A stretch of DNA of 64,000 bases from an uncultured Bacteroidota bacterium (GTDB lineage Bacteria > Bacteroidota > Bacteroidia > Chitinophagales > Chitinophagaceae). Below the pieces are notes generated by a model. The model was not told the origin of the DNA. It searched no databases and saw only the letters and a list, made by a program, of their open reading frames with translations. The first letter of the stretch is position 1. Each line of letters starts with the position of its first letter. Below are positions 31,782 through 34,350 of this stretch, one piece after another. The stretch is from assembly GCA_903938445.1 (NCBI GenBank), contig CAJADG010000052.1, positions 1-64,000 on the forward strand, in the 5' to 3' direction. The position numbers were made by a program, and so were the translations under genes.

Positions 31782-31794
31782 TTAAACATTGGTT

Positions 31795-32523
31795 ATGGCA
31801 CTTGAATGGGTGGAAGGAGTAATTACTAAAATTGAAAATGAAACTCCCAATACAAAAAGATTTTATTTCGAAATTCCAAGTCTTGAAAAATTTGACTTTA
31901 TTCCTGGTCAATTTGTAACATTAGACTTGCCAATTCATGAGCAAAAAAATAAAAGATGGAGAAGTTATTCAATTTCTTCTGCTCCTAACGGAACAAATAC
32001 ATTTGAATTAGTAATTGTCCATTTAGAAGGGGGTTTAGGAACTACTTACTTATTTAACGAAGTAACTGTGGGTTCAAAAATTACGCTTAGAGGTCCTCAA
32101 GGTGTGTTTACATTACCAAAGAACTTTGACAGCGATGTTTATTTTATTTGTACAGGAACTGGTATCGCACCTTTCCGTTCTATGATCACCTATATTCACG
32201 AAAATAAAATTGCACATAACAATATTCACTTAATTTTTGGATGTCGCAAATTCGAGGATGGCTTATATATTGATGAATTAAAAGCTTTAGAGGCGAAAGA
32301 GCCAGGCTTCCATTTTCATCCTTGTTACTCTAGAGAAACTGAAGTGCCTACAGGATCACATAGCGGCTATGTACACCCTGTATACCAAGAATTATTAAAG
32401 CATAATAAAGAAACTGCACATGTTTGGTTATGTGGCTGGAAAGCAATGATTGATGATGCACGAAAAAACATGACAGAGTTAGGCTTGGACAAAAAACAAG
32501 TTCACTTTGAATCTTTCGGATAG
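31795..32523 (+). CDS. Ferredoxin-NADP(+) reductase-like FAD oxidoreductase
   Basis: About 242 aa. FNR superfamily: FAD-binding barrel with the RxYS motif (KRWRSYSISSAPNG), then LEGGLGTTYLF. The NAD(P) domain has YFICTGTGIAPFRSMI, LIFGCRKFEDGLYIDEL, and the pyridine-binding end HVWLCGWKAMIDDARKNMTELG. The chain ends near that region, so there is no fused ferredoxin domain and the redox partner is separate. The track ORF begins at TTG 31789; the ATG at 31795 (MALEWVEGVITK) is preferred. It lies 13 bp after the protease gene, possibly by chance co-transcription. A clear terminator follows. Confidence 0.9.
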   Translation: MALEWVEGVITKIENETPNTKRFYFEIPSLEKFDFIPGQFVTLDLPIHEQKNKRWRSYSISSAPNGTNTFELVIVHLEGGLGTTYLFNEVTVGSKITLRGPQGVFTLPKNFDSDVYFICTGTGIAPFRSMITYIHENKIAHNNIHLIFGCRKFEDGLYIDELKALEAKEPGFHFHPCYSRETEVPTGSHSGYVHPVYQELLKHNKETAHVWLCGWKAMIDDARKNMTELGLDKKQVHFESFG

Positions 32524-32543: not shown

Positions 32544-32572
32544 TAAAAGCCTCGATTTATCGGGGCTTTTTT
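32544..32572 (+). terminator. Intrinsic terminator after the oxidoreductase gene
   Basis: AAAAGCCtCGA-TTTA-TCGgGGCTTTTTT forms a strong stem with a T-run, about 20 bp after the stop codon. Confidence 0.88.
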
Positions 32573-32597
32573 AATGTCTTAACATACTTATTTCTAG

Positions 32598-32817
32598 ACG
32601 CGCAATTTAGTGATATATAAAATGGCTTCATGAAACCAATTTCTTCTCTGCTCACCATTTACGCTAAAAATGAAATCTAGCATCTAAAATTGCGAACTCG
32701 CTTCGCTCAGACATGCGCAATTTATTAACGATGCTATCTCTCATTTTCTTAACGCTATGGCTCGGAGTTCAGAAATTTGTTTCATTGCGCCTTTTATTAT
32801 CCCACTATATAAGTCGT
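32598..32817. repeat. Large imperfect palindrome, MITE-like
   Basis: The left arm (about 32606-32684) and the reverse complement of the right arm (about 32730-32808) align along their whole length at roughly three quarters identity by eye, with perfect blocks TAGCATC/GATGCTA (32678-32684 and 32730-32736) and AAATTGCG/CGCAATTT (32687-32694 and 32716-32723). The centre GAACTCGCTTCGCTCAGACATG forms the loop. GCGCAATTT occurs as a direct repeat at 32600 and 32715. The structure suggests a miniature inverted-repeat element or a long structured RNA; no coding potential. Confidence 0.6.
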
Positions 32818-32822
32818 AACAT

Positions 32823-32852
32823 AAAAAATTCCGAAACGGTTGCTTCGGGATT
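32823..32852 (-). terminator. Intrinsic terminator of glyS
   Basis: On the minus strand AATCCCGAA-GCAACCGT-TTCGGAAT (one G-U pair) is followed by TTTTTTA, about 24 bp after the glyS stop. Confidence 0.75.
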
Positions 32853-32875: not shown

Positions 32876-34324
32876 CTAGTTGATTGCATCTAGCACTAAT
32901 GATTTTACTTTACTCATCGGAATACGCTCCTGTGTCATAGAATCACGATGACGAATGGTAACGGTACCATCCTCCTTAGTTTGATGATCAATCGTTACGC
33001 AGAAAGGAGTCCCAATGGCATCCTGACGACGATATCTTTTACCGATAGCATCTTTTTCTTCATAAAAGCAATGAAACGATTTCTTACATTCGTCCATTAA
33101 TTCTTTTGCCAATTCTGGCAAACCATCTTTTTTAGTTAATGGTAAAATAGCTAATTTATTAGGTGCAATTCTTGCAGGCAAATGCAAAACCACTCTTGAA
33201 TCGGTAGTACCGTCTTCCTTATTAATAGTTTCTTCTTCATATGAATTAGACAAGATTAACAAGAACATTCTATCCAAACCAATAGAAGTTTCAATTACAT
33301 AAGGAATATAATGCTGATTAATTTCAGTGTCAAAGTATTGCATTTTCTTTTTGCTAAACTCCTGATGACGACTCAAATCAAAATCAGTTCTTGAGTGAAT
33401 GCCCTCTACTTCTTTAAAGCCAAATGGAAATTCATATTCTATATCCAAAGCAGCATCCGCGTAGTGTGCTAATTTAACGTGGTCATGAAAACGATATTTG
33501 TCAGCAGCAATACCCAAACTTAAATGCCACTTCATACGTTCATTCTTCCAGTGCTCATACCATTCTTTTTGCGTTCCTGGCTTAATGAAAAATTGCATTT
33601 CCATTTGCTCAAACTCTCTCATTCTAAAGATAAACTGACGGGCTACAATTTCATTTCTGAATGCTTTACCAGTTTGTGCAATACCAAAAGGAATTTTCAT
33701 CCTAGCAGTCTTTTGCACATTCAAAAAGTTCACAAAAATACCTTGTGCCGTTTCTGGTCTTAAATAAATAGTACTTGCCTCATCTGTTACAGAACCTAAT
33801 TCAGTAGAGAACATTAAATTAAATTGACGAATCTCCGTCCAGTTACCTGTTCCACTAACACTACAATGAATTTTATGGTCGTCAATTAATTTTTTTAAAC
33901 CAACATAGTCATCATTCGCCAATAAGGCATCCATATCAGCAATTAATTGATCGGCTCCCACTTGATCTCCTTTTTCGATCATTTTTTCAGCATGACCTTC
34001 AATTAAATGATCAACTCGATATCTTTTTTTACTGTCTTTATTATCTATTAAAGGGTCGCTAAAACTATCTACGTGTCCGCTTGCCTTCCAAGTAGTAGGA
34101 TGCATGAAAATAGCCGCATCGATACCAACTATATTTTCATTCATTTGTGTCATGGAATTCCACCAATAATCACGAATGTTCTTCTTTAATTGAGCACCAT
34201 AAGGACCGTAATCATAAACCGCACTAAGTCCATCGTAAATTTCACTACTAGGAAATACGAAACCATATTCCTTAGCATGGGAAATAATTGCTTGTAATGT
34301 ATTGTCTGTTGGGTTCTTACTCAT
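32876..34324 (-). CDS. glyS: Glycine--tRNA ligase (single-chain, dimeric type)
   Basis: 482 aa class II synthetase charging tRNA-Gly, of the single-polypeptide type (GlyQS/eukaryal-like) rather than the alpha/beta form. Motifs: AIISHAKEYGFVFPSSEIYDGLSAVYDYGPYG at the start, YLRPETAQGIFVNFLNVQKTARMKIPFGIAQTGKAFRNEI (motif 2 region), EQMEMQFFIKPG, IETSIGLDRMFLLIL (motif 3 region) and a C-terminal anticodon-binding domain (IAPNKLAILPL ... GTPFCVTIDHQT). The track ORF starts at TTG 34333; ATG 34322-34324 (MSKNPTDNTL) is used. Last gene of an apparent dtd-mazG-glyS operon, 26 bp after the mazG-like gene. Confidence 0.95.
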   Translation of the reverse strand: MSKNPTDNTLQAIISHAKEYGFVFPSSEIYDGLSAVYDYGPYGAQLKKNIRDYWWNSMTQMNENIVGIDAAIFMHPTTWKASGHVDSFSDPLIDNKDSKKRYRVDHLIEGHAEKMIEKGDQVGADQLIADMDALLANDDYVGLKKLIDDHKIHCSVSGTGNWTEIRQFNLMFSTELGSVTDEASTIYLRPETAQGIFVNFLNVQKTARMKIPFGIAQTGKAFRNEIVARQFIFRMREFEQMEMQFFIKPGTQKEWYEHWKNERMKWHLSLGIAADKYRFHDHVKLAHYADAALDIEYEFPFGFKEVEGIHSRTDFDLSRHQEFSKKKMQYFDTEINQHYIPYVIETSIGLDRMFLLILSNSYEEETINKEDGTTDSRVVLHLPARIAPNKLAILPLTKKDGLPELAKELMDECKKSFHCFYEEKDAIGKRYRRQDAIGTPFCVTIDHQTKEDGTVTIRHRDSMTQERIPMSKVKSLVLDAIN

Positions 34325-34350
34325 AGTTGGCAAAGATACGTAGTAATCAA

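Follow-up and report, generated by a model that had tools for sequence, protein, structure and literature searches.

What is the roughly 220-bp imperfect palindrome that fills the gap between two convergent genes in the window (the whole 64-kb stretch of DNA analysed here)? A sequence-only reading of this stretch had pointed to its length and to a pattern of decay in its arms, and had proposed either a miniature inverted-repeat transposable element (MITE) or a long-hairpin RNA.

A long hairpin between two terminators

The palindrome is real. Its arms (32598-32817) aligned with 74 of 95 columns identical (78%) and small gaps, and its palindrome score of 46.6 was the highest among all 220-bp stretches of the window, where the next unrelated stretch scored 34.8 and the mean was 20.5 (sd 3.3). 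An ungapped repeat search of the window missed it, because its internal loops are asymmetric. RNA folds of 32580-32840 gave −55 kcal/mol for the plus strand and −73 kcal/mol for the minus strand (z about −4), and none of 200 shuffles folded as well on either strand.

The gap lies between a gene for an FNR-type oxidoreductase (31789-32523, plus strand) and a gene for a class-II tRNA synthetase (32876-34333, minus strand), read as a glycyl-tRNA synthetase (GlyRS) from its Pfam domains. Intrinsic terminators flank the palindrome on both sides, as had been claimed. That of the oxidoreductase gene (32545-32572, plus strand) and that of the GlyRS gene (32823-32849, minus strand) were each found as a hairpin with a T-run.

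The fold is conserved and its loops are near-invariant

A covariance model, R1, was built from 44 copies of the element from the genus of the window genome (Sediminibacterium-like, Chitinophagaceae). In the window it matched the minus strand at 32640-32776 with 142 bits. The conserved core spans about 136 positions, and the outer columns are unconserved. Across the genus alignment the helices vary in sequence while pairing is kept, with 95% of cells paired, and this fraction dropped to 30-48% when the structures were slid as a control. Both sides of a pair had changed in 290 cells compared to 94 in shuffles, a shuffle-based excess that is inflated by the relatedness of the sequences and to which template switching can also contribute paired changes. 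The asymmetry of the wobble pairs and of the loops argues that these two effects are not the whole explanation.

At variable pairs read on the minus strand, G.U outnumbered A.C by 60 to 13, and the consensus fold scored −24 on this strand versus −12 on the other. We therefore assign the fold to the minus strand, which the arm alignment and the folds also indicate as the probable functional strand of the whole hairpin. The wobble bias was weak outside the genus (150 vs 114).

The internal loops and the apex are near-invariant among copies. On the minus strand the apex reads GCATGTYTGAGC-GNA-GCGAGTTC, a tandem G.A beside a two-base-pair stem and a GNA loop. We call this class A, and the window copy has it as GCATGTCTGAGC-GAA-GCGAGTTC at 32694-32716, as judged from the alignments and from a pattern search with a reversed control. 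Class B apices have a longer stem, GCACGAAGTGC. Below the apex, alignment A2 places an inner internal loop on the minus strand, with TTTTAGAT on its 3' side (32682-32689) and ATCGTTAA on its 5' side (32725-32732), and an outer one with TTTTAGCGT (3' side, 32661-32669) and CATAGCGTTAA (5' side, 32749-32759). A basal loop, probably of the tandem-G.A type with non-canonical pairing, follows on the same strand and in the same alignment, with GGTGAGCAGAG on the 3' side (32646-32656; GGCGAGCAGAG in many copies) and CTGAACTCCGAGCC on the 5' side (32759-32772).

Conservation is highest at the unpaired positions, and loop sequences are kept among copies, so that the mismatches had been misread as decay. 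Because the loops are fixed while the helices drift, the folded strand is probably still under selection, most likely through something that binds it. That the loops stayed conserved long after mobility had ceased in this clade suggests the same.

Copies persist in convergent gaps, often as doublets

A search of the window genome brought the total to three, with two additional, divergent copies at 84% and 76% identity, and relatives carry more. The sequence-only reading had named a single-copy sequence that is absent from relatives as speaking against its proposal, and the palindrome is neither. Among 61 genomes searched by blastn, the element occurred in 15, each of them from this genus; the 24 genomes of other families in that set had none. 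Model R1 found matches in 27 of 61 genomes of the genus. Two contigs labelled Comamonas (L184 and L218) also matched the model, with 128 and 142 bits, which suggests that they are mis-binned Sediminibacterium contigs.

Both neighbouring genes were visible for 50 clade copies, which represent mainly nine orthologous loci. Forty-eight of these copies lay in convergent gaps, an arrangement shown by 7 of the 49 pairs of genes in the window, and the terminator scan used found no other terminator on either side in 28 of the 50 gaps. Copies also formed pairs about 200 bp apart. There were 13 distinct pairs (of fifteen rows, two list loci again that already appear under a different record), all outward-facing, and in 12 of them the two apices were of different classes, one A and one B. 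At loci B and E, different species on the tree retain different partners of the doublet at one and the same locus, from which we infer that A+B doublets were ancestral and lost members differentially. At locus A, the class A and class B slots are swapped in G007 (L074) relative to G025 and G005 (L058, L079) while gene order is unchanged, which looks like a flip of the whole doublet.

Orthologous gaps show how patchy the element is. Among 28 close-clade genomes, the gap between the FNR-type and GlyRS genes holds it only in the window genome (G000) and in G025; in the remaining genomes this gap measures 3-325 bp and is without the element. The G025 copy (L228) is nested in a 20-bp inverted repeat, GTTGTACCATATTTATTTCT..AGAAATAAATATGGTACAAC, about 420 bp overall. 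Several other species have a different short palindrome in this gap, of the ATTCAGAAATACAATTTTGAGCGAGCG..AGCGAGTCGAAAAATTCGTATTTTGAAT type (L238-L241, L243, L244, L246, L249, L250, L253). Locus C, where a SAICAR-synthetase gene stands next to a gene identified by eye as rhodanese-like, has an ordinary bidirectional terminator in more distant species and the element in many close ones. Three genomes (G105, G066 and G016) have deletions there that leave one arm and look microhomology-mediated, and in several close relatives the gap measures 13-42 bp and contains no element and no terminator.

Fuller units and a candidate pseudoknot in other genera

Matches to the model, at loci that were not preselected, occurred in 14 of the 103 Chitinophagaceae genera that were sampled (the genus of the window genome included), with 1-19 copies per genome. 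Separate model scoring of loci preselected by their apex overstates independence. In the other genera, and in G070 of the same genus, the unit is fuller, as the long hairpin is flanked by a further hairpin on its 5' side and another on its 3' side. The 3' hairpin, which most relatives have, is for example GTTACTTTTTG-TATCAAGA-CAAAAAGTAAC, and its loop can pair with CTTGAT just upstream. Over 43 distinct modules, the longest complement between loop and upstream sequence averaged 5.16 nt versus 4.04 nt with permuted loops, and it reached at least 5 nt in 28 modules versus 14 with permuted loops (maximum 23 in 500 permutations). In several proteobacterial members, TCGCC:GGCGA replaces the CTTGAT-type pairing. 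On these sequences, the loop-upstream pairing is a covarying candidate pseudoknot.

The apex pattern was present in 13 of 396 Bacteroidota genomes, compared to none for the reversed pattern, and also in Gammaproteobacteria, Betaproteobacteria, Clostridia and Fusobacteria. Isolates that carry it include Clostridium sp. chh4-2 and strains of Methylobacillus. Arm complementarity exceeded the 95th percentile of random positions in 63 of 83 hairpins from outside the genus; the other 20 may be chance matches or decayed members. One Bacteroidota genome, G345, has nine near-identical full units in 24 kb (C2:303157-326430; L287-L288), eight of them on one strand. Tandem hairpin repeats (GAGCGAAGC) and duplicated ATPase genes surround the units of this cluster.

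Terminal inverted repeats and target duplications

How did such units spread? In G588, a genome from another Chitinophagaceae genus, they measure about 385 bp and are bounded by terminal inverted repeats (TIRs), CATTRTTGTCCGRGTAA, with 91 matches to the TIR versus 7 with the reversed pattern. Target duplications of 9 bp were perfect in 7 of 16 cases and matched at 8/9 or better in 12 of 16. The mean match was 7.6/9 versus 4.3/9 in permuted flanks, with no excess at other lengths. The units of G125 and G618 measure about 473 bp, and their TIR is imperfect and not that of G588; one of its ends gave 53 and 24 matches, respectively (control 0). The automatic test for target duplications was negative in the units of these two genomes; shifted 9-bp duplications were read by eye at L366, L370 and L371.

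The G588 evidence is why we file the family as MITE-like, and its TIRs together with the 9-bp duplication point to a DDE-type enzyme. Copies are non-coding and dispersed, with three in the window genome and up to 19 in relatives. As a statement about the family, the proposal of a MITE therefore stands; the window copy itself is a relic, at whose site neither TIRs nor a target duplication were recognised, and the clade elements have lost their ends and the 3' module. The tie between the clade hairpins and the TIR-bearing units rests on the shared core and on G070. None of the G588 matches formed a TIR pair spaced for a transposase gene, although TIR variants could hide one. An autonomous partner with matching TIRs is not strictly required of a MITE.

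Other routes were considered and rejected. An IS200-like transposase gene lies between two family members of the same orientation in G195 (C1, L318), but it has an in-frame stop and was not seen elsewhere. Insertion into palindromic targets is not indicated either, as flank complementarity was 6.5 compared to 7.0 in permuted flanks. The RAYT domain PF01797 (Y1_Tnp) was absent from the window genome and from the tested carriers of its clade.

Discussion

We consider it probable that the palindrome is an old, vertically inherited relic that belongs to a MITE-like family whose structured core is conserved. Units would have been moved in trans by a DDE-type transposase. In the clade of the window genome, copies have lost their ends and the 3' module and remain chiefly between convergent genes, either alone or as both halves of an outward-facing doublet, and elements appear to be lost by deletion between short repeats. 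The folded strand might be bound as an end-of-transcript hairpin in the convergent mRNAs, or as a DNA hairpin. A wider reading, which we put forward tentatively, is that of an uncatalogued structured nucleic-acid module found across phyla, whose hallmarks would be the long hairpin, its tandem-G.A apex, GUUA-type internal loops that recur and the 3' pseudoknot. Such a module could act as RNA or as folded single-stranded DNA, be carried in MITE-like elements and be kept by its hosts at convergent gene ends.

Is the core instead a functional non-coding RNA? It could be a trans-acting sRNA or a 3'-UTR element made from the minus strand, with the mobile units as mere carriers. As a structure, the proposed long-hairpin RNA has the support of the covariation and the wobble bias. 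The strand-specific bias and the pseudoknot, whose type of pairing covaries across phyla, would favour RNA, as do the near-invariant loops, and inverted doublets would give each convergent transcript one sense copy. However, the window copy sits between two terminators, the direction of the folded strand (f-strand) has no clear tie to that of tandem neighbours (6:6 in one count, 10:5 in another), and presence among close relatives is patchy. As these three observations favour folded DNA or a fossil, we judge the RNA explanation unlikely.

The setting of the clade copies, with 48 of 50 in convergent gaps and 28 of the 50 gaps without another terminator on either side in the scan used, is what would be expected of a bidirectional terminator or insulator for convergent genes. 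This explanation is nevertheless improbable: the window copy already has terminators on both sides, the locus C gaps of 13-42 bp, which lack the element as well as a terminator, show that such a role is not required, and termination would not need conserved loops. Mobilisation by a RAYT (HUH) transposase, as an element of the REP/BIME or REPIN type, would account for the inverted doublets of two subclasses, for the GNA mini-hairpin apex and for the intergenic and convergent bias reported for REPs (PMC3733652). It is the explanation we find hardest to credit, since PF01797 is missing from the window genome and the tested clade carriers, the core measures about 136 nt rather than 20-50 and has no end tag, and the TIR and 9-bp duplication in G588 indicate a DDE-type enzyme.

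The relic of a MITE-like family is thus the reading that we carry forward. A MITE, a REP-like repeat and a structured RNA are each known; their combination here is new. The unusual part is the folded core, which is shared across many bacteria and, in scans of the window and selected relatives, absent from Rfam. The family offers a way to test the idea of a structured module, RNA or DNA, that travels in small transposons and may be retained where convergent genes end. Cultured carriers, in which expression is measurable, can be located with the motif and the covariance model.

Comparison with known systems

A literature search by motif strings and descriptive terms, with most subscription papers outside its coverage, returned no matching description. 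Look-ups in plasmids and E. coli gave scattered short matches or none, and a phage origin was rejected, with one viral-contig match only. Like the structured RNAs of Rfam, the family has covarying helices, invariant loops and a potential 3' pseudoknot; a scan of the window and selected relatives with Rfam 15 gave no family at gathering score over the element, and sub-threshold overlaps only (in the window, for example, rimP with 27.6 of 47 bits).

Integron attC sites form a long imperfect hairpin with strand-specific extrahelical bases, and the family is likewise a long imperfect hairpin with strand-specific features. In contrast to attC sites, it showed no attC core motifs by eye, and the array-like G345 cluster has no integrase among its ORFs, so this identity was rejected.

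REPs are defined as palindromes of 20-50 nt, one end of which bears a GTAG (or CGTC) tag (PMC8266576, PMC3733652). The family resembles REP, BIME and REPIN elements with their TnpA_REP (RAYT) in being an extragenic imperfect palindrome with single-strand features, a preference for convergent gaps and inverted two-subclass doublets, with 12 A+B pairs among the 13 distinct outward-facing ones. It differs in being much longer (a core of 136 positions), in having no GTAG/CGTC end tag and no RAYT in the clade, and in the TIR-type mobility of a relative; on tag, size and RAYT it falls outside the REP/BIME definition.

The closest likeness to MITEs is in G588, where the units are small and non-coding, have TIRs and target duplications, number in the tens and have no transposase of their own. 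MITEs are usually regarded as passive repeats with drifting interiors. Here, the ends of the window copy are gone, and the interior of the family is a conserved, covarying fold common to units with different TIRs and kept across genera, with similar apices in distant phyla.
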